This document shows, in pieces, positions 20,701-30,963 of a stretch of 31,492 bases of DNA. How positions within the stretch are numbered: position 1 is the stretch's first letter; the number at the start of each line of letters is the position of its first letter. The DNA is from a virus, in IMG/VR virus record IMGVR_UViG_3300037193_001033, positions 1 through 31,492 of that record. One strand, written 5' to 3'. The notes beneath the pieces are model-generated. The model saw only the letters and a list, made by a program, of their open reading frames with translations. It made no database searches and was not told the DNA's origin. A program made the translations under genes and the position numbers.

Positions 20701-23700
20701 ATGGCTGTCACCTTACAGGGTGCGTCATCCAGCTTTGAGAGTGCCAGCGCCACATCTGCAGTGATCCCGTATCCTGCTGGTGTGACCGCTGGCGAACTTC
20801 TCATCGCTGAGGTGGCTCACACTTCCGGCACGGCGCCTACGACAAACCCTGGTGGCTGGACACTGATTGCAAGCGAGGATGGGTTCCAAACTCCGTCCAT
20901 CGCATTGTGGTACAAGTGGGCAACGGGTTCCGAGACTGGCTCCGTCACATTCCCAACAACCACGACGGCTAACCGCGTCACGGGTTACATGCAGCGTTGG
21001 GCTGGTGTGGATGCGACCACGCCCATCGATGCTCCACCCGTTGGCGATCACGTTCCGTCGACCGCAGGAAATACGTACACGTCTCCAGCTTTGACTACGG
21101 TCACGGCTGGGGCATTGATCCTGCACGCAGTCGCGCTCAACTCTGCGACCTCCTCGGATATCAATGCTGCGACTGGCACGACAAAGATTATCGGCACGAC
21201 TGGTACGGGTCGTCGGTACAGCATCTTCCATGAAACTCAGGCTGCGGCTGGTTCAACAGGAACTCGCCTCTGGACACAAACAGACACGGCTGCATCTCTG
21301 CAGTGGACGAGCATTAGCGTTGCGCTCCGACCCTCTGCTGGCGGTGGGGGTGGCACTCCTCCTCCCTCGGGTGGCGGCGTATCTCCGACGCTTCACTTCC
21401 GCGTTGTGTCTATCAACACCACTGACCCTGCTCGCAGCGGTCTTGTCCAGGCTCGAGTCACGGGAGCATCATCACTCCGTCTGCGTTGTTCAACTGACGC
21501 CGCAGGCAATTCAGGTGTGGTGTATGGTCCCGCGACTGCGCCCGGCAACCTGGGTTGTACTCGACTGACAATCACCGGGCTCACGCCGAGCACGCGTTAC
21601 TACTACCGTGTCATGATGACCAACCCCGAGGGGACTGAGTTTGCCGACACGGCGAACCCTATTGGTCGACTGAAGACTGGGCCGGATGGTCCCGCTTCGT
21701 TCACGTTCGACTTCGGTTCCTGTAACACTGGCAACCATCAGGGTGCGTACAACGCTATCGCTGCTCGCAACGATGACATGTTCTTCCATGTTGGCGACCT
21801 GTATTACCACGACGGCTCGGGCACGTCACTGACCAACTTCCGTTCTCGTATGGGCACGGCGGTTACCGCATCGCAGAACCTGTTTGCTACGGTGAACATG
21901 TTCTATATCCCGTCCGACCACGACGGTATGAACAACGATGGTGCGAATGGCTCAGACCCGACAGCATGGACTAACTGGAACATCGCTCGCTCCGAGCACT
22001 TCCCTTGGCAACAGAGTTACCAAACCTGGGTCTGGGGTCGTGTCCGCTTCATCATGCTCGACACCCGTTCGTTCAAGTCTAACCCTGCGAACACTGACAA
22101 CTCCTCAAAGACTGCCTTGGGTACGACCCAGAAGCAGTGGCTGAAGGATACGATCAATGCGGCGACAGAACCTGTCATCGTGATCGGTCAGGACACTCCC
22201 TGGGTTACAGGTACGAGCGCGGGTGACGACGCCTGGGGCGGCTTCATGACGGAACGCAACGAGCTGGCATCATTCATCGATGGAACTAACAAGAACGTCG
22301 TAATGCTCGGTGGCGACATGCACGCCCTGGCTGCAAACGACGGATCTTCTTCCCCCGGTGGTGTGCCGATCTTCCATGCTGCACCGTTCAACCAGGCTGC
22401 CAGCCATAAGGGCGGACCCTACACCCAGGGACCATACCCGGCGGCAGGGCCTACGGTTCAGCAGTATGGCCGTGTCGTTGTCACAGACTCGGGCACGCAG
22501 ATATCGCTGGCATTCAATGGCTACACGCTCGATGGTGTATCCCGCTTGTCGCTGACGAAGAACTACACGGTGTCTGCCCCGCCGTCAACCTCTCGGGTGA
22601 ATGTTCACCGAGTTGCCGTTGACGTAGAGCCCAGTACTGTGATGGTGAATCTGCATCGTGTTGAGACCACGGTTGTTGCAACCAACGCTGCGCCCAGGAT
22701 CCACCGGATCGAGGTCCAGGCTGTTGGCTCTGCTGACCCGGGACCGAACATCAGGAACCTCGAGGCAGGTCTGCTTGTGCAGATGACTGCTGAGGCACCG
22801 GGTGATCCGTTGTCCTACACGTGGGACCAGGTTGCTGGCCCGAGCGTAACGCTCACCAAGTCTGGTGTGGGTGACAAGACTGCAGCGTACCATGTACCTG
22901 CTCTCCGAGCCGACGCTGACCTGGTGTTCCGTGTCGTTGCCAATTACCTGGGTGGCACATCATCTGGCTCGGGCATCACCCGGCATGGCGTAGCTCGTGT
23001 TCCGAACCTCATGGTAAACAGTGACGCATCATTGACCCCGATTGAGATTAGCTCCACACCGGGTACTGCTCCTGACCCAGGCGGTGGCGATCCCGATCCG
23101 GGCGGCGGTGGGGGCGTGATCGTCTCGCCAGGCCATCAGCCTCTGGGCGTACCAGGCAACTGGACGACGGTGCTGGCTGAGAACTTCGATGACCTCAACC
23201 GCGCGTTGTGGACACCATACTGGTTCTCGGAAGGTAGCCAAAGGAACGGCGTTGCAACCAACGCAGCAAACGTCGCTGTAGCCAACGGCGAACTGACGCT
23301 GACGCTGGCAAGTTCGGCAAGTGGTGCACTCATCTCGACTAACCCGAATGACTTCGAACCCGGGCACGTTGGGTTCACGTTCAATTACGGATTCGTTGAG
23401 GCGAGGATCTTCTTCCCGGGCTCGGGACCGACGGTGTACAACTGGGTTGACTTCTGGACTAACGGCCAGACATACCCGACCAATGGCCTGGCAAACATCG
23501 CCGAATCTGACTCGCTCACATCGGGTCGGCTGAAGGCACGGTATCACTCGGGCGCACCGGGTGCTGCGGTCATTCAGGACTCGGGGCCCATTCCCGGCAA
23601 CTGGGGAGGCAGCTGGCACATCTACGGTCTGCACCGCAGGCCTGGCCAGAATGACGTATACATTGATGGACAGAAGGTGTGGTCCTACCTGACGAATGAT

Positions 23701-24483
23701 GCCGGTGCTCCGCACTACATTGTCCTGAACGTAGGCAACTCTACTGGCAACAGTGTGTACGGCGATGCCTCTAAGGTCCGAGTCGATTACCTGCGTGTCT
23801 GGACTGATGGCACTGCTGCTCCCGCTGACGACGGCGTGCAGGCTGCGACTACCCTGAACTGGGGTCCTGTCGTTGCCGGCGACGAATTCAACTACACAGG
23901 TCCACCGGACTTCAACAAGTGGGGCATGTATGACGGTCCCGGTCACGGTGGGCAAGGGTTCCGTAGGCCTTCGGCGTTCAACGTCGCTGATGGCTTCCTG
24001 CGTTGTACTGGCTTGCCCGATGGAACAACCGGTGGTATGCGTGCGAAGTTTGCCATGCAAACCTACGGCCGTTGGGAATGCCGTATGCGTACGAACCAAC
24101 GAGACCCCAAGTACCACCCGGTACTTATCCTCTGGCCATTGTCAGGCTGGAACCACCCGATAACCTGTTGGGAAATTGACTACGCTGAAGGCTTTGGTAA
24201 CCATCAGCAAATCAACTTTGTCAATCACCACGGATGCCCGGGTCAGACTCTGGTAACCAGAAACATCGACACCACACAGTGGCACAACTATGCAGTGGAA
24301 TGGACGTCAACCCGGTTGCGTGGTTGGATCGACGGCGTTCAGTGGTACGACCTTACTAACACGGCACAGATTCCAAATGTTCCAATGTGGCAAACCATTC
24401 AGCTGGACTGGTTCCCTGTTGCGGGCCAGACCACAATTCTCTCAACCATGGACGTTGCCTGGTGTCGCGTCTACAATCTGTAA
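20701..24483 (+). CDS. Giant tail protein: PhoD-like phosphoesterase plus two GH16-like domains
   Basis: This is a 1260-residue multidomain protein. Residues 1-215 form a beta-rich N-terminal module, followed by a Gly/Pro linker. About 232-328 is a Fn3/PhoD-N-like domain and about 332-625 a PhoD-like metallophosphoesterase, with metal-site motifs DFGSCN (337-342), HVGDLYYHD (363-371), SDHDGMNND (405-413) and GGDMH (537-541). HR[VI] recurs at 636, 652 and 668. A PKD/REJ-like domain lies at about 680-755, then another Gly-rich linker. About 822-1045 is a degenerate GH16 domain and about 1051-1260 a GH16 domain with the full E-x-D-x-x-E motif (E1158, D1160, E1163). There is no signal peptide, as expected for a virion part. 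Bacillus PhoD cleaves wall teichoic acid and GH16 enzymes cut beta-glucans or galactans. I infer a surface-polymer depolymerase; the substrate is unknown. Confidence 0.82.
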   Translation: MAVTLQGASSSFESASATSAVIPYPAGVTAGELLIAEVAHTSGTAPTTNPGGWTLIASEDGFQTPSIALWYKWATGSETGSVTFPTTTTANRVTGYMQRWAGVDATTPIDAPPVGDHVPSTAGNTYTSPALTTVTAGALILHAVALNSATSSDINAATGTTKIIGTTGTGRRYSIFHETQAAAGSTGTRLWTQTDTAASLQWTSISVALRPSAGGGGGTPPPSGGGVSPTLHFRVVSINTTDPARSGLVQARVTGASSLRLRCSTDAAGNSGVVYGPATAPGNLGCTRLTITGLTPSTRYYYRVMMTNPEGTEFADTANPIGRLKTGPDGPASFTFDFGSCNTGNHQGAYNAIAARNDDMFFHVGDLYYHDGSGTSLTNFRSRMGTAVTASQNLFATVNMFYIPSDHDGMNNDGANGSDPTAWTNWNIARSEHFPWQQSYQTWVWGRVRFIMLDTRSFKSNPANTDNSSKTALGTTQKQWLKDTINAATEPVIVIGQDTPWVTGTSAGDDAWGGFMTERNELASFIDGTNKNVVMLGGDMHALAANDGSSSPGGVPIFHAAPFNQAASHKGGPYTQGPYPAAGPTVQQYGRVVVTDSGTQISLAFNGYTLDGVSRLSLTKNYTVSAPPSTSRVNVHRVAVDVEPSTVMVNLHRVETTVVATNAAPRIHRIEVQAVGSADPGPNIRNLEAGLLVQMTAEAPGDPLSYTWDQVAGPSVTLTKSGVGDKTAAYHVPALRADADLVFRVVANYLGGTSSGSGITRHGVARVPNLMVNSDASLTPIEISSTPGTAPDPGGGDPDPGGGGGVIVSPGHQPLGVPGNWTTVLAENFDDLNRALWTPYWFSEGSQRNGVATNAANVAVANGELTLTLASSASGALISTNPNDFEPGHVGFTFNYGFVEARIFFPGSGPTVYNWVDFWTNGQTYPTNGLANIAESDSLTSGRLKARYHSGAPGAAVIQDSGPIPGNWGGSWHIYGLHRRPGQNDVYIDGQKVWSYLTNDAGAPHYIVLNVGNSTGNSVYGDASKVRVDYLRVWTDGTAAPADDGVQAATTLNWGPVVAGDEFNYTGPPDFNKWGMYDGPGHGGQGFRRPSAFNVADGFLRCTGLPDGTTGGMRAKFAMQTYGRWECRMRTNQRDPKYHPVLILWPLSGWNHPITCWEIDYAEGFGNHQQINFVNHHGCPGQTLVTRNIDTTQWHNYAVEWTSTRLRGWIDGVQWYDLTNTAQIPNVPMWQTIQLDWFPVAGQTTILSTMDVAWCRVYNL

Positions 24484-24491
24484 GGAAATCC

Positions 24492-24899
24492 ATGAAGGCC
24501 CTGCTTATAAAGGCCGCGAAACATGGTGTTGCACAGGTGCTCGGCGTCATCCTCTTTCTGGGTGGCGCCGGCATCGGTGTCTCGCTACTCACGGCTCCTA
24601 CAATCATCAACCATAAAATCTTCGCCTACAACTTCCTTTGGGCGTCGCCAGTGACCTGGGGCGTCATCTTCCTGGTAGCGAGCATGCTGCTCGTTGTCAC
24701 TGTTCTCATGGACACTCGCTTGGCACAATTGCCTGCATTACTGTTGGGGGCCGTCTTCATTGTCTTTGGGTGTTTCACACTCTTGGCAGGCGTCACCCCC
24801 GTGGTGTGGGCTTTCGTCGCGCTCGGCTGGGTATCAATCTTTACCCAGATCGTGTGTTGGGCGGAGGACAAACGTGAAACATCAGCTGGTCATAACTAG
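24492..24899 (+). CDS. Four-helix membrane protein
   Basis: This 135-residue protein has four predicted membrane helices (about residues 14-36, 52-73, 79-99 and 101-122) and a short charged C-terminus. I chose the ATG at 24492, eight bases after the tail gene stop, with TAAGGAAAT just upstream. A longer frame from 24387 would lie inside the tail gene. Its last 26 bases overlap the next gene. No family is recognised. It is the first of three adjacent small membrane proteins, and a lysis, superinfection-exclusion or envelope role can be considered, but none is shown. Confidence 0.72.
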   Translation: MKALLIKAAKHGVAQVLGVILFLGGAGIGVSLLTAPTIINHKIFAYNFLWASPVTWGVIFLVASMLLVVTVLMDTRLAQLPALLLGAVFIVFGCFTLLAGVTPVVWAFVALGWVSIFTQIVCWAEDKRETSAGHN

Positions 24900-25335
24900 C
24901 CCGAACAACTCGGTAGCCGTTGCCATCTACGCGATGATGGCTTTCTTCGGCTTTCTCATGGTAATCGGGCTGAGTACAAACCGATACATCGTAAATGCTT
25001 GGGGTGAGGTAGCGGGCGGCGTATGGGCGTGCGTGCTGCTCACAAGCGGTGCTGCTGCACTCTACGCGTGTCTGACGGCGCCTAAACGTATCGACCCGAC
25101 ACGATCACTCATCATTGAAATGTGGGCGTCTGCTGCACTCTGTATCAACATGCTGACTCTCGAACTGTCGTTGCTTCCCTTCTGGGACAATGGCGCAATC
25201 CGAGATCGATTCCCAGTTACCACCCTGGGCTTGGGTCTGATCTTCTTCGTAGCCTTTGGCACGAGGGTGTTTCAGATCCTGCATGAACGTCGTCGCATCC
25301 GGGACTTCCGTAATGGACCAGCTCCGGCTGAATAG
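24874..25335 (+). CDS. Second four-helix membrane protein (GTG start)
   Basis: This 153-residue protein runs from a GTG with GGAGG six bases upstream (24863-24867). The longer open frame from 24694 has no such site. Four predicted helices lie at about residues 13-33, 48-68, 80-101 and 116-134, with a basic C-terminal tail (HERRRIRDFR). It overlaps the previous gene by 26 bases and the next by 23, a sign of tight coupling. It is similar in size and topology to its upstream neighbour but not obviously homologous. Function unknown. Confidence 0.72.
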   Translation: MKHQLVITSPNNSVAVAIYAMMAFFGFLMVIGLSTNRYIVNAWGEVAGGVWACVLLTSGAAALYACLTAPKRIDPTRSLIIEMWASAALCINMLTLELSLLPFWDNGAIRDRFPVTTLGLGLIFFVAFGTRVFQILHERRRIRDFRNGPAPAE

Positions 25336-25636
25336 AGACGCCGTGGAATGGGACAAGCTGGGGTTGTTCATCAGTTTGGTCACTCCCCTAGTACTCGGCG
25401 TGGGGGCTTGGATCATTGACGCCCTGAACAAACGGAAAAAAAAGAAGACCGATCCCGAGCCCATCACTCAGGGACTGCAGGTCGACTACGAAACCGATTA
25501 CGTAACACTGTTGAAGACAAGCTTAGCTGATGCTCGTGCAGAGATAGCTGAGCTCAAACAAGAAATCAAGACCCTCGAATCTAGGAGTGATAATGGCAAT
25601 TCAGACAGTAACCGAACGCAACGCGCTGGCGACTGA
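25313..25636 (+). CDS. Single-span membrane protein with coiled coil
   Basis: This 107-residue protein starts at the ATG at 25313, inside the previous gene's end. One membrane helix (about residues 16-37) is followed by a Lys cluster (RKKKK, 41-45), then a coiled-coil helix at about 65-91 (heptad Leu/Ile/Ala, Glu/Lys-rich) and a polar end. This layout resembles spanin-like or holin-accessory proteins, with the coiled coil probably on the cytoplasmic side if the Lys cluster stays inside. The Lys codons create an 8-A run (25436-25443) followed by G. That includes the classic slippery heptamer A AAA AAG in frame at 25438-25444. Confidence 0.68.
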   Translation: MDQLRLNRDAVEWDKLGLFISLVTPLVLGVGAWIIDALNKRKKKKTDPEPITQGLQVDYETDYVTLLKTSLADARAEIAELKQEIKTLESRSDNGNSDSNRTQRAGD

Positions 25637-25937
25637 CTACGCAACGGACGCAGCCTATGGTGCGGTCTACACCACGGCACCGTCTTCGTCTGCAGGCACC
25701 GAGCCGTCAGGTGGGTCTCCCGCCTATGCACGGAAAGCTCTGTCCTGGGGTGCTGCGTCTTCCGGTGTCGTCACTGCAACTGCAACCTTCGATATCCCTT
25801 CGGGTGCAACCATCGTTGGTATCGGCGTCCACACCGCAGTCACTGGCGGTACGTACCTTGACGGTGCGTCCATCACATCTCAGGCGTTCTCCTCACAGGG
25901 AACCCTGACTGTCACGTTCACCTACACCCAGAGCTAA
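25593..25937 (+). CDS. Small beta-rich tail-associated protein
   Basis: This 114-residue Ala/Thr/Ser/Gly-rich protein starts at ATG 25593, with AGGAG five bases upstream. It overlaps the previous gene by 44 bases. The N-terminal 45 residues (TERNALATDYATDAAYGAVYTT) look like a capping segment. The remainder (FDIPSGATIVGIGVHTAVTGG, then GTLTVTFTYTQS) is a single beta sandwich ending in a strong strand. It resembles small minor-tail proteins of actinophages and may decorate the tail tip. No enzyme motif is present. Its stop shares a base with the next gene's ATG (TAATG). Confidence 0.68.
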   Translation: MAIQTVTERNALATDYATDAAYGAVYTTAPSSSAGTEPSGGSPAYARKALSWGAASSGVVTATATFDIPSGATIVGIGVHTAVTGGTYLDGASITSQAFSSQGTLTVTFTYTQS

Positions 25938-26728
25938 TGAAAAAGCTCCTGTCCCTGGGTGCAGTCGTAGCCCTCATCCTGGGCTTCATGGTCGTGCTTG
26001 GTACTCCCGCGCAGGCAGCCTCTGCTTGTACGAACCTTGCCGCTGTGAAGCTCGGGTGGGGGGCTCCCGTCCTTGCAGACGAATTCAATTACACAGGTAA
26101 ACCTTTGTCCGAGCGCTGGGGCATGTACAACTCCCCCGGTCATCAGGGCAAGGGACTTCGCTCACCGTCTGCATGGAATGTCAACGGATCCGCCGCTGTC
26201 GTCACTGGCCAACCCAATGGAACTACGGGTGGCATGGCAATGAAGGGCTCAGGCCGAACGTACGGCAAGTACGAGGTCTGTATCCGTGTCAACGACCGAG
26301 ACCCAAAGTACCACCCTGTCGCACTGCTCTGGCCTTCAGACCGTGCGCACTACAACGCGAAGTGCTGGGAGATCGACTTCGCCGAGGGTATGGGCAACAC
26401 CGAGAAGATGAACTTCTTCAATCACTATGGGTGCCCAACCAAGCAGAGCTACGCAAGCAAGACCGTGGACCTTCGCGGCTGGCACGCGTTTGCACTGAAC
26501 TGGTCACCCGAGGGTGTGGTCGGCTACATTGATGGTGTGGAATGGTTCAGGGATACTGCGCCGTCACACATCTCGAACGTAAAGATGTTCCTGGCACTGC
26601 AGCTCGACTGGTTCCCGAAGTCGGGTGAGTCTACCAAGACAAGCCAGATGTTCATCGACCATGCTCGTGTGTATGCGGCTGGTGCTCCTGCACCGAAGCC
26701 GTCACCCCCGCCCACCTGTCCCGTCTAG
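25937..26728 (+). CDS. Secreted GH16 glycoside hydrolase, paralogue of the tail-borne GH16
   Basis: This 263-residue protein begins with a clear Sec signal peptide: KK at 2-3, a hydrophobic core at about 4-22, and a TPAQA cleavage box with likely cut after A27. The mature enzyme (about 37-246) is a GH16 domain with the complete catalytic motif E145-I-D147-F-A-E150, expected nucleophile E145 and acid/base E150. It matches the last domain of the 20701-24483 tail protein along its whole length, for example DEFNYTG, WGMY, NGTTGGM, RDPKYHP, CWEID and LQLDWFP. The end is a Pro-rich tail (PAPKPSPPPTCPV). It is coupled to the previous gene by TAATG and closed by a terminator. Exported glycosidase activity is well supported; the substrate is not known. 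Confidence 0.88.
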   Translation: MKKLLSLGAVVALILGFMVVLGTPAQAASACTNLAAVKLGWGAPVLADEFNYTGKPLSERWGMYNSPGHQGKGLRSPSAWNVNGSAAVVTGQPNGTTGGMAMKGSGRTYGKYEVCIRVNDRDPKYHPVALLWPSDRAHYNAKCWEIDFAEGMGNTEKMNFFNHYGCPTKQSYASKTVDLRGWHAFALNWSPEGVVGYIDGVEWFRDTAPSHISNVKMFLALQLDWFPKSGESTKTSQMFIDHARVYAAGAPAPKPSPPPTCPV

Positions 26729-26734
26729 CCAATT

Positions 26735-26763
26735 GCTGGGGGCCTTCGGGCCTCCAGCTTTCT
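26735..26763 (+). terminator. Rho-independent terminator with TTCG loop
   Basis: GCTGGGGGCC (26735-26744) pairs with GGCCTCCAGC (26749-26758) with one G-T, closing a stable TTCG tetraloop. The run CTTTCT follows. It begins six bases after the secreted GH16 stop. The next gene starts at 26774 with its ribosome site (TAAGGAGC) right behind the hairpin, so read-through or antitermination must supply it, because I see no promoter between. Confidence 0.75.
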
Positions 26764-26773
26764 AAGGAGCACC

Positions 26774-29590
26774 ATGGCTATTACACTTGAGGGGACACCT
26801 ACCCTTTACGAGAGTGCGGGAAATACTTCTGCGGTAATGTCGTACCCCTCGGGTATTGTCTCTGGCGAACTATTACTTGCCCACATGGCGGTATCGACCA
26901 ACGTCCATCCCACCACTGCACCTTCGGGCTGGACGTACATCGCAGGCCGTAATGGGGGTGACGCCACCTCCGGCCCATCCATCTCAGTGTTCTACCGCTG
27001 GGCTGATGGTAGCGAATCGGGTACTGTTTCCTTTTCTACGGGCACAACATCTAAACGCGTTTCCGGCATCATGGAACGCTGGTCGGGGGTAGATGCAACC
27101 ACACCATTCGATGTGTCGGCCGCCGGCGCCTCGGGCTTTACGGAAGGCCACACCAGCTCATCGATTACTACAGTCACCAATGGCGCGGTGGCGGTGTTCT
27201 CTATTGGCATCGGTGCTTCGGGCTCGGATATCACAGCCGCGACGGGCACTACCCAGATCAGCCAGACAACCGGCACGGGTCGACGGTTTGGGGTGTTCCG
27301 TGAGACTCGAGCTACTGCCGGAGCAATCGGCACACGCAGCTGGGTAAAGTCGGGCACCGGCTCTTTGAACTGGGCCAGCCTTGTCATGGCTTTGCGCCCT
27401 TCGTCGGGTCCTGCTGCTCCTGCTCTCGTTCAGCGAGTCGTGGGTATTCCGGAGACTAACCCTGACACTACTGTACGAATCACGGTCAAGACTACTGATG
27501 CCACGTCTGTTCGGCTAAAGCTGGGCACTGACTCGGGCGTCACCTCTGGTGTGGTGTTCGGCGGGGCTGTCACTCCATCCTCTGGCAATGCGACACTGAC
27601 CGCCACTGGGCTGACGGCTAACACACGATACTACTACCGAGTCGAGATGACAGACTCTGGCTCGAACACCTCGCTCGATACGGGCGCCGTGGGTCGAGTC
27701 AAGACTGCACCATCCGGCCAGGCATCGTTCTCGTTTGACTTTGCCTCCTGCTGTAACGCATCGGACTCTGACTCGATGGCCGCAATTGCAACACGCGGCG
27801 ACGATCTGTTCTTCCACCTGGGGGACATGTACTACGCCGATGCATCAGGTACGGGCGTGGCAAACATTCGAGACAAGATGAATGCGAAGATTACAGCGAC
27901 GAACCACGCTGCTGTCTTCTCGACTATGAACACCACATACACACCATCTGACCATGATGGTATGAACAACGACTCTAACGCAGGGTCTGACTCAACAGCC
28001 TGGGCTAACTGGAACACGGCACGCGCTGAACTCTGGCCGATGCCCGCAAGCTACTACAGCTTCGTGTGGGGTCGTGTCCGATTCATCCAGCTTGACCGCA
28101 GGTCGTTTGCCTCGAACCCGGCTAACACGGACAACTCGTCCAAGACCTCACTCGGCACAACGCAGAAGACCTGGTTCAAGAACCTGATTGACAGCGCGAC
28201 CGAGCCACTCATCGTCATCATTCAAGAAAGCCCATGGATTACCTCGGCTTCCTCTGGCGACGATGCCTGGGCAGGATACATCACTGAACGAGATGAGCTT
28301 GCAACTCACCTGTCTAACTCAGGTAAGAACATTGTGATGCTCGGTGGTGATGGTCACATGGTCGGTGCAGATGATGGTACAAACGCTCCAGGCGGTATTG
28401 TGATGCTGCATGGTGCACCATTGAATAACGCTGCAAGCCAGAAGGGTGGCCCGTATTCGACTGGGCTGTACCCCTCGTCTGGTACGTCAACCGTGCAACA
28501 GTATGGACGCGCGACGATCACTGACAATGGCAGCAGCATGGTGCTGAACTACGTTGGCTACAGCTCGGACAATACCTCACGCAAAACCCTCGAGGTAACG
28601 TACGATCTGGCCGAGGAATACGACGCGACTGGTAACCTCTCAGGTTCTGGTACGCTTACGTCGACTCGCACTCCGGCGTTTTCGATCACGGCTAACCTCT
28701 CAGGCTCGGGTACGCTGACAGGTACGCCCACACCCGCGTTCAATCGGTCTGCGAACCTTACCGGCTCGGGTACGTTGTCAACCAGTGTGATTGTCCAGGG
28801 GTTCTCTCGTACGGGATCGCTGTCCGGCTCGGGCACCTTGACTGGTACAGCCACACCGAACGTGAACGTCACAGGCAATCTGTCTGGTGGGGGTACGCTC
28901 ACCTCAAGCAGGATCGTTGGGTTCAGCAAGACAGGCAATCTGTCTGGCTCGGGCACACTGTCCAGCGCTGGTGAAACACTCACTGCATCTGCGAACGGTA
29001 CGCTGTCTGGTTCTGGCTCGTTGACCGAGGTTCACACCCAAGAAATATTCAAGACCGTAGCGCTGTCTGGGTCGGGTACGCTTACCGGCTCGGGCATGGT
29101 GATGAACTACAATGTCACCGCGCCGCTGTCGGGCGAAGGTACTCTGACTGTTGAGATAACCTCGATGGACGTGGACGTATCGTTCAACGGGTCGGGCTCG
29201 GGTGAGCTTGAGGGGTTCAGCACCCAGGATGTCCTGGGTAATCTGACAGGCTCGGGTCAGCTTAGCTCTATACACCTCATGGGTTATGCTCGCGAGGTTG
29301 AGCTGGGTGGCACTGGTACTCTCGTGGGTACTTCCCGCGGCCATCGGGTTGTGTCAGTCAACCTGGGATCAACTGGCGTTCTGGCGGTGTCTGTATTCGC
29401 CGACATACGCCCAACGGGTCATTTGTCGAGCATCGGTACGCTGAGCGCTGTCGGGCGCCATACAGGGTCTGCTAGCGTTGCCTTCACTGGGTCGGGTCAA
29501 TTGACTGGTACGCCGCTCGATTCGGGCGTCATCAAACTGTATGCTGACCTGACGGATCCCCGTTGGCAGTTCGACTTGGGAGAGCAATGA
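26774..29590 (+). CDS. Second PhoD-like tail protein with 15 C-terminal 20-residue repeats
   Basis: This 938-residue protein is a paralogue of the first 625 residues of the 20701-24483 protein. It has the same N-terminal module (MAITLEGT start; RWSGVDATTPFD), a Fn3/PhoD-N-like domain (about 218-312), and a PhoD-like domain (about 316-612) keeping DFASCC (322-327), HLGDMYYAD (348-356), SDHDGMNND (392-400) and GGDGH (524-528). In place of the GH16 part it has fifteen repeats of 20-21 residues (about 621-910) built on x-L-S-G-S-G-T-L, then a short end ending WQFDLGEQ. AAGGAGC precedes the ATG. The repeats probably make a fibrous beta-structured stalk. A virion location is inferred, as there is no signal peptide. 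Confidence 0.82.
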   Translation: MAITLEGTPTLYESAGNTSAVMSYPSGIVSGELLLAHMAVSTNVHPTTAPSGWTYIAGRNGGDATSGPSISVFYRWADGSESGTVSFSTGTTSKRVSGIMERWSGVDATTPFDVSAAGASGFTEGHTSSSITTVTNGAVAVFSIGIGASGSDITAATGTTQISQTTGTGRRFGVFRETRATAGAIGTRSWVKSGTGSLNWASLVMALRPSSGPAAPALVQRVVGIPETNPDTTVRITVKTTDATSVRLKLGTDSGVTSGVVFGGAVTPSSGNATLTATGLTANTRYYYRVEMTDSGSNTSLDTGAVGRVKTAPSGQASFSFDFASCCNASDSDSMAAIATRGDDLFFHLGDMYYADASGTGVANIRDKMNAKITATNHAAVFSTMNTTYTPSDHDGMNNDSNAGSDSTAWANWNTARAELWPMPASYYSFVWGRVRFIQLDRRSFASNPANTDNSSKTSLGTTQKTWFKNLIDSATEPLIVIIQESPWITSASSGDDAWAGYITERDELATHLSNSGKNIVMLGGDGHMVGADDGTNAPGGIVMLHGAPLNNAASQKGGPYSTGLYPSSGTSTVQQYGRATITDNGSSMVLNYVGYSSDNTSRKTLEVTYDLAEEYDATGNLSGSGTLTSTRTPAFSITANLSGSGTLTGTPTPAFNRSANLTGSGTLSTSVIVQGFSRTGSLSGSGTLTGTATPNVNVTGNLSGGGTLTSSRIVGFSKTGNLSGSGTLSSAGETLTASANGTLSGSGSLTEVHTQEIFKTVALSGSGTLTGSGMVMNYNVTAPLSGEGTLTVEITSMDVDVSFNGSGSGELEGFSTQDVLGNLTGSGQLSSIHLMGYAREVELGGTGTLVGTSRGHRVVSVNLGSTGVLAVSVFADIRPTGHLSSIGTLSAVGRHTGSASVAFTGSGQLTGTPLDSGVIKLYADLTDPRWQFDLGEQ
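28631..29503 (+). repeat. Coding tandem repeats, period about 60 bases (15 copies)
   Basis: This segment encodes residues 620-910 of the preceding protein. The conserved Leu/Phe of each unit falls at 622, 642, 662, 683, 703, 723, 744, 764, 785, 804, 824, 844, 864, 884 and 904. The first eight or so units keep LSGSGTL almost exactly; later ones drift (LGGTGTL, LGSTGVL, FTGSGQL). The DNA words vary in third positions (CTCAGGCTCGGGTACG, CTGTCCGGCTCGGGCACC), so the array is old or under protein-level selection rather than a fresh duplication. Confidence 0.85.
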
Positions 29591-29878: not shown

Positions 29879-30010
29879 ATGCATGGTGTAGCATCGGGTC
29901 ACGAAGTCCCGCCCGAAGATTGGGACACAGTCGTCGCTGACGCTGAGAAGTTCCGCCTCGAGGCTGAGCTGTCTGAGCCGCGCATGGCTGGCAACGCGGA
30001 GAACGAGTAA
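29879..30010 (+). CDS. 43-residue acidic small protein
   Basis: This is a short open frame with AAGGAG seven bases before its ATG, and its stop shares a base with the endolysin ATG (TAATG). The product is acidic and mostly helical (EDWDTVVADAEKFRLEAELSE), with no membrane segment. The good ribosome site and the coupling argue for translation. It may mainly feed ribosomes to the endolysin start or act as a small regulator. No family is recognised. Confidence 0.6.
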   Translation: MHGVASGHEVPPEDWDTVVADAEKFRLEAELSEPRMAGNAENE

Positions 30011-30963
30011 TGGTTACTATCTCTCCCGCCCTGGACTGGACTGCGTTGGGTATTGCCTCGAGAAAGTATTTCCAGGTCTCGGGCATACCCACGCAGCTCC
30101 TTGTCCTGCACTCGGCTGAATGCCCCCTCCGTGGGGGGTTCGCGCAGTCGCTGACTAAATGGGCATCGTCAATCTATCCCGCTTACCCTGAAGCATCGTG
30201 GCATAGGTTCGTTGACCCCATCGTTCGCCTGCGCATGATCCCTGATCACCTGGGGGCATGGCACGCATCAGAAGCCAACGGTCTGTCCATCGGCTGGGAG
30301 CAGGCTGGGTACGCCCGGTACTCTCGCGCTGAGTGGACTACGACCGAGGGCATTCAGATGCTTCACAACCTCGCATACGACATGGCGGAGGTCGCCAAGC
30401 GTGACGGCATTCCTCCGGTGTGGCTGACTGACAAACAGGTACGCGATGTACTTGACCGTGGCGACCGTAAGACGAAGGGCTTCTGCACCCACAGGCAGAT
30501 TGACCCTGAGACTCGCACGGACCCGGGCAACGGGTACCCATACGAACTGCTCATGAACCAGGTCAAGATTTACATGGGTGTCACAGTGGCACCACCAAGG
30601 CCACCGGTTACGCCCACACCACCGAAGATACCGGCCACGAACTTTGTGCCGGATCCCCACTGGCGCGTTGACAAGGGTGACACCCTGGGTGTGATTGCCA
30701 AGTACTACAAGGTATCGCTCATGGACCTCGCGGGCTGGAACGGTATCAAGAACATCAACCAGATCAAGGTTGGCGAACGTATCTGGAAGCCCGGGGACGG
30801 GTACGGGACATGGACTGTCGAGCGCGGCGATACGCTGTCCTCGATTGTCAAGTGGTGCCAGAACAACTGGTCACGAAAGATTACATTGCAATCCATCTGC
30901 TATGCGAATGGCATCAACGATCCGAACAAGTTAGACGTTGGCGTAAGACTCAAAGTCGCATGA
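30010..30963 (+). CDS. Endolysin: amidase_2 domain plus two LysM domains
   Basis: This 317-residue endolysin is predicted to cut the bond between N-acetylmuramic acid and L-alanine in peptidoglycan. Residues about 25-190 form a zinc amidase_2 / PGRP-like domain with predicted zinc ligands H34 (VLHSAE), H161 (CTHRQID) and D171 (RTDPGNGYP), and E97 in SIGWEQAGY. A Pro-rich linker (about 194-207) leads to two LysM wall-binding domains, one at about 218-261 (VDKGDTLGVIAKYY, ending VGERIW) and one at about 268-316 (VERGDTLSSIVKWC, ending VGVRLKV). It has no signal peptide, so it needs the holin to reach the wall. GGAG is upstream of the ATG within the preceding short gene. Confidence 0.92.
   Translation: MVTISPALDWTALGIASRKYFQVSGIPTQLLVLHSAECPLRGGFAQSLTKWASSIYPAYPEASWHRFVDPIVRLRMIPDHLGAWHASEANGLSIGWEQAGYARYSRAEWTTTEGIQMLHNLAYDMAEVAKRDGIPPVWLTDKQVRDVLDRGDRKTKGFCTHRQIDPETRTDPGNGYPYELLMNQVKIYMGVTVAPPRPPVTPTPPKIPATNFVPDPHWRVDKGDTLGVIAKYYKVSLMDLAGWNGIKNINQIKVGERIWKPGDGYGTWTVERGDTLSSIVKWCQNNWSRKITLQSICYANGINDPNKLDVGVRLKVA

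Follow-up and report, generated by a model that had tools for sequence, protein, structure and literature searches.

A soil actinobacterial phage with a tail-borne GH16 domain and a separate GH16 gene carrying a predicted export signal

The stretch of viral DNA analysed here (the window, 31,492 bases of the IMG/VR virus IMGVR_UViG_3300037193_001033) belongs to a soil actinobacterial phage that carries an enzyme domain on its tail and, in addition, a separate GH16 gene with an export signal. We give about even credence to the reading that the product of this gene, P0001, is a secreted GH16 endoglycanase made late in infection, which would act on a cell-surface or matrix glycan and so free and disperse the progeny. 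What the sequence offers in favour of this is an export signal, a GH16 fold with intact catalytic residues, an exact insertion site and the fact that related phages repeatedly carry exported enzymes.

The main genes of the window are all read from the plus strand, starting with the terminase, which is followed by portal, capsid, tail, fibres, endolysin and a holin-like gene. The terminase and capsid are closest to those of actinobacteriophages, with 47.5% for Streptomyces phage Samy and about 45% for Arthrobacter and Gordonia phages. At the start of the record (1-790) the G+C content is lower, with 48% in 1-1000, and there is an odd Cys/Val/Met-rich reading frame at 361-615; these first 790 positions are possibly non-coding or an assembly edge. 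Two small membrane-protein genes at 24694-25636, between the GH16-bearing tail protein and a 115-aa gene, have counterparts in the related phages L047 and L048 and are possibly lysis-related. Many repeats of an LSGSGTLT-type motif come after the second PhoD-like fibre protein (26774-29590), and such repeats are also present on the fibres of L039 and L048 at the equivalent position. The features referred to below are as follows.

20701..24483, plus strand: tail protein with a PhoD-like phosphatase (aa about 250-620) and two GH16-like domains
23149..23820, plus strand: first GH16-like domain of the tail protein, motif degenerate (LANIAES), from alignment
23836..24480, plus strand: second GH16 domain of the tail protein, motif CWEIDYAEG, from alignment; 48% identity to P0001
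25590..25937, plus strand: structural gene of 115 aa (phrog_240), conserved and the landmark of the insertion; stop codon TAA overlapping the GH16 ATG
25937..26728, plus strand: predicted exported GH16 gene (P0001, 263 aa), from ORF and translation, Pfam GH16, AF2 fold and PDB matches
25937..26017, plus strand: predicted Sec signal peptide, aa 1-27, cleavage between AQA and AS, from sequence and hydropathy
25937..26727, plus strand: inserted segment, as compared with L039/L046 where the site is empty, CTA at both junctions, from blastn and sequence comparison
26042..26686, plus strand: GH16 catalytic domain, aa 36-250, from a 19-sequence alignment; structure match aa 33-250
26369..26386, plus strand: catalytic motif E145-I-D147-F-A-E150, from the alignment of 19 homologues
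26735..26758, plus strand: GC-rich hairpin of 10 bp downstream of the GH16 gene, possible terminator with a weak T tract (fold -22.3 kcal/mol, z -2.1)
26774..29590, plus strand: second PhoD-like fibre protein, after the GH16 gene (Pfam PhoD, E 5e-16; phrog_13624)
30010..30963, plus strand: endolysin with LysM repeats
L048, 8353-9900: exported protein with CBM96 and a probable phosphoesterase

P0001 is a GH16 protein by profile, fold and ExDxxE motif, and endoglycanase activity is predicted for it. The protein matches Pfam PF00722 at E 4.9e-6 and 26.6 bits, above the curated cut-off of 22, and a profile of 19 P0001 homologues finds beta-1,3-glucanases in the PDB at E 2e-14. The AF2 model (pLDDT 86.5) has the GH16 jelly-roll fold, and its best structural matches are beta-1,3(4)-glucanases, with 8va4 at Z 24.8 and an rmsd of 2.4 over 212 residues; the nearest solved structures are glucan-cutting enzymes, at about 20% identity. 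Within the alignment of the 19 homologues E145 and E150 are invariant, while D147 is replaced by N in two. The motif aligns to GEIDIAE of 3iln and GEIDILE of 4bq1, with E145 opposite the first Glu of the 4bq1 GEID, and the mutant structures of the 4bq1 protein are titled E269S. The preliminary description of this DNA had claimed a GH16 domain with an intact E-I-D-x-A-E motif, and on this point Pfam, the fold and the residues E145-I-D147-F-A-E150 agree.

The open reading frame of P0001 runs from an ATG to a TAG, and its N-terminus reads MKKLLSLGAVVALILGFMVVLGTPAQA followed by ASAC. By sequence rule and hydropathy it has what Sec export and signal peptidase I cleavage call for, namely a positive n-region (K-K), a hydrophobic stretch of 19 residues and an AxA site, which bears out the clear signal peptide claimed earlier for the product of 25937-26728. 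Within the first 45 residues hydropathy over 15 residues peaks at 2.93, a value topped in the window only by that of a 70-aa membrane protein. A relaxed PROSITE-type lipobox, AASAC, also matches at C31, such that lipoprotein anchoring may be an alternative to release; however, C31 comes 8 residues after the end of the hydrophobic stretch, and release through signal peptidase I therefore appears to be the better reading.

The GH16 gene is located on the coding strand between the tail genes and the endolysin. Its ATG overlaps the stop of the preceding 115-aa gene (TAATG), and this overlap together with the downstream hairpin makes cotranscription with the late genes likely, though the hairpin at 26735..26758 is absent from the terminator-scan output. 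A promoter of its own was looked for, and none was found. The codon usage of the gene is phage-like (GC3 0.68 versus 0.84-0.92 in bacterial homologues), which speaks for a long residence in the phage genome. An assembly chimera at this gene was ruled out by the codon usage.

The lipobox and the position of the gene bear on a different purpose for the enzyme, which is the control of superinfection. P0001 would then remove the receptor glycan on the infected cell and on the cells next to it, perhaps as a membrane-anchored lipoprotein, and thereby block later phages or the phage's own progeny. The related GH16 domain of the tail suggests a common glycan target, a relaxed lipobox pattern matches in P0001 while several bacterial relatives and phage L006 have a lipobox, and the phage surface lipoprotein Ltp, which blocks superinfection, provides a precedent (PMC3952083). 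However, Ltp belongs to a lysogeny module and is expressed from the prophage, whereas the P0001 gene sits in the late tail/lysis block; the distance of C31 from the hydrophobic stretch favours signal peptidase I, and the exported relatives in L003, L004, L005, L048 and L067 are without a lipobox. We regard superinfection control as an unlikely role, though one that deserves to be kept in view.

The preliminary description had further called P0001 a stand-alone copy of a tail domain. P0001 is indeed homologous to the domain that closes the tail protein (48% identity, E 3.8e-71). A recent duplication, however, is unsupported, since P0001 is about equally near to the exported GH16 enzymes of Micrococcaceae (50-52% identity) and to the tail domain, and a recent copy is excluded by this divergence; the tail domain itself is 57% identical to the Micrococcaceae enzymes. 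In the phylogenetic tree P0001 and the tail domain are paired (97/94) and nested among Micrococcaceae sequences, both on long branches, and dropping either of the two leaves the other one loosely placed. They have in common a two-residue insertion before the catalytic motif and read CWEID instead of CAEID; an insertion of about the same length is also present in one Nocardioides sequence. Taken together, the sequences make an old common origin of P0001 and the tail domain likely, and the long branch of P0001 could reflect a changed specificity or a relaxed constraint. In the other GH16-like domain of the tail, LANIAES in the window stands against an intact ENDIAE in the sister phage L039. The last GH16 domain of the L039 tail is of a different type (QGEIDFPEAG), which suggests domain exchange.

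The close homologues of P0001 are exported Micrococcaceae proteins, and this GH16 type is concentrated in that family, with 13 of 245 genomes as compared to 2 of 246 in Nocardioidaceae and none of 201 in a third family. P0001 thus apparently derives, by sequence, from exported GH16 enzymes of Micrococcaceae-like actinobacteria such as Arthrobacter. The exported GH16 proteins of Arthrobacter, Pseudarthrobacter and Sinomonas resemble it in having a GH16 domain of 50-52% identity and a signal peptide or lipobox, but differ from it in that GH16 is often accompanied by CBM96, by a phosphoesterase domain or by a long linker. L018, like P0001, is a stand-alone form. On reading the gene neighbourhoods of the bacterial relatives, no exopolysaccharide gene cluster common to them was seen.

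A search of INPHARED (50,697 phage records) gave no match to P0001, and for the L005 protein only weak partial matches outside GH16. A single-sequence scan of viral contigs with P0001 likewise gave no matches, such that alignment-based searches were needed. These brought together 24 viral contigs with this GH16 type, the window included, in which the protein is exported in 7, a tail fusion in 13 and stand-alone but unexported in 4, as sorted by their N-termini, with L076 seen in part and the start of L066 ambiguous. The exported ones are those of the window, L003, L004, L005, L006, L066 and L067, and PHROGs matches show phage genes adjoining the GH16 genes of L003, L004, L005, L066 and L067. 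The L004 and L005 proteins combine CBM96 and GH16 with a probable phosphoesterase, while that of L003 is a PF04185 phosphoesterase-GH16 protein, as L066 appears to be by sequence. C-terminal GH16 fusions to large tail proteins are common among these actinophage-like contigs (L007, L009, L068, L071, L074, L078, L080 and L082), although at the sensitivity used P0001 detected none of them in INPHARED. A constraint placing six Micrococcaceae-type phage sequences in a single clade was rejected (p-AU 1e-50), and phages thus acquired Micrococcaceae-type GH16 more than once. The preliminary description had considered a Sec-exported twin of a tail domain uncommon. This stands as far as the absence from INPHARED and the presence of exported and tail GH16 in one phage are concerned, but it has to be qualified for an exported GH16 as such, which is found in 7 of the 24 contigs. 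Searches of open-licence papers, few of them read in detail, brought up no phage described as combining an exported GH16 with one on the tail.

The same distribution helps to weigh a nutritional role, in which P0001 would be the product of an auxiliary metabolic gene, an exported glucanase that frees sugars from environmental beta-glucans for the infected host. The beta-1,3(4)-glucanases among the best structural matches would fit this, and the exported CBM96-phosphoesterases of sister phages could likewise free phosphate. Yet a short infection and a late-placed gene would leave little time for a gain in sugar, and the same GH16 type in 13 viral tail fusions argues for a role on surface glycans. 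We consider the nutritional role to be quite unlikely.

The place at which the gene sits is defined precisely by comparison with related phages. In L039 and L046 the end of the 115-aa gene, CAGAGCTAG, is directly joined to CCAATTGCTGGGG, whereas in the window the flanks CAGAGCTAG and CCAATTGCTGGGG are separated by exactly 791 bases (25937-26727). L045, L046 and L047 are empty at this site, with 49-52 bases to the next fibre gene. In L048 and L049, by contrast, a protein with a signal peptide, CBM96 and a probable phosphoesterase begins 7 bases past the 115-aa gene, and it is about 81% identical to the L005 protein, minus the GH16 domain. The phosphoesterase assignment of the L048 protein comes from a profile search in which purple acid phosphatases matched weakly (E 4e-5); Pfam gave no match for this domain, and Foldseek gave no significant match for the C-terminal domain, the model being of low confidence (pLDDT 49). 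Gain in the lineages of the window and of L048/L049 is the more parsimonious reading in this small sample. Nine regions of Micrococcaceae prophages with related tail genes were inspected, and an exported enzyme at this place was not seen in them.

These comparisons leave little room for P0001 as a virion component, assembled into or onto the tail, with a hydrophobic N-terminus that has another purpose. Its gene adjoins structural genes and it is homologous to a tail domain, but there is no tail-attachment domain in its 263 aa, the AxA signal peptide is canonical, and the gene is exactly absent from sister phages with otherwise similar tails, all of which renders this highly improbable. That it is a neutral or decaying passenger, captured without benefit to the phage, as its long branch and its presence in one lineage only might suggest, is likewise highly improbable given intact catalytic residues and export signal, phage-like codon usage and the recurrence of exported enzymes at the equivalent place in other phages.

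We infer secretion during infection, as well as the substrate, the timing and the benefit, and a late, secreted endoglycanase might work as follows. P0001 would be made along with the late tail and lysis proteins, its translation coupled to that of the structural gene just upstream, and the infected cell would probably release it to the outside before lysis. There it would cut a glycan on the cells or in the matrix around them, plausibly of the same class as that attacked by the tail GH16 domain on arrival. Progeny would be freed and dispersed, with less trapping in the matrix and less re-adsorption to debris; among possible benefits we rank progeny release and dispersal first, then superinfection control, then carbon scavenging. 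With respect to the target, GH16 is often paired with a phosphoesterase; several phages and host proteins have the two as a fusion, and the tail of the window carries a PhoD. For PhoD of B. subtilis an action on teichoic acids has been proposed (PMC4223295). This pairing and the teichoic acid proposal suggest, as a lead only, a phosphate-bearing glycopolymer as the target of P0001.

More tentatively, we entertain the wider possibility that for the soil actinophages of this group the infected cell serves as a platform for secretion. One fixed site behind a small structural gene would take up and exchange host-derived exported surface enzymes (GH16, CBM96-GH16-phosphoesterase, CBM96-phosphoesterase), which would complement or replace virion-borne versions, such that one glycan is attacked on entry by the tail and from the dying cell by the secreted enzyme. 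A site that recurrently captures exported enzymes of the host constitutes a natural comparison set (empty, GH16, phosphoesterase), which could be used to test the purpose of secreted phage enzymes and which points to a surface polymer that is important to these phages.

Phage depolymerases are usually described as parts of the virion or as soluble enzymes that are freed by lysis. The export signal of P0001 implies that it acts extracellularly ahead of lysis, on neighbouring cells and on matrix, and this would be a distinct stage of the phage cycle. Among the related systems are the soluble capsule and matrix enzymes of Bacillus phage phiNIT1 and its relatives, which include a poly-gamma-glutamate hydrolase and levanase/GH32 (PMC5977233, PMC4595243). 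Like P0001, they are phage-encoded, free, directed against extracellular matrix and not part of the virion. However, they belong to other enzyme families and hosts, and the phage GH32 enzymes were reported without a signal peptide (PMC4595243); the export signal and the tail-borne relative are features of P0001. The virion-type GH16 tail fusions (window 20701-24483; L007, L009, L068, L071, L074 and L078) have the same GH16 type, but they are C-terminal domains of large tail proteins and lack a signal peptide. The CBM96-phosphoesterase of L048 and L049 resembles P0001 in its insertion site behind the 115-aa gene, its signal peptide and its kinship to the same type of host protein, yet it is without a GH16 domain and is a probable phosphoesterase instead. 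Ltp, a small superinfection-exclusion lipoprotein that blocks DNA injection (PMC3952083), is likewise a phage protein exported to the host surface, though it is not a glycosidase, and the P0001 gene is found between tail genes and endolysin rather than in a lysogeny module. Soluble depolymerases encoded by phages and exported phage surface proteins are thus already known, and what the present phage brings together is an exported and a tail-borne GH16.
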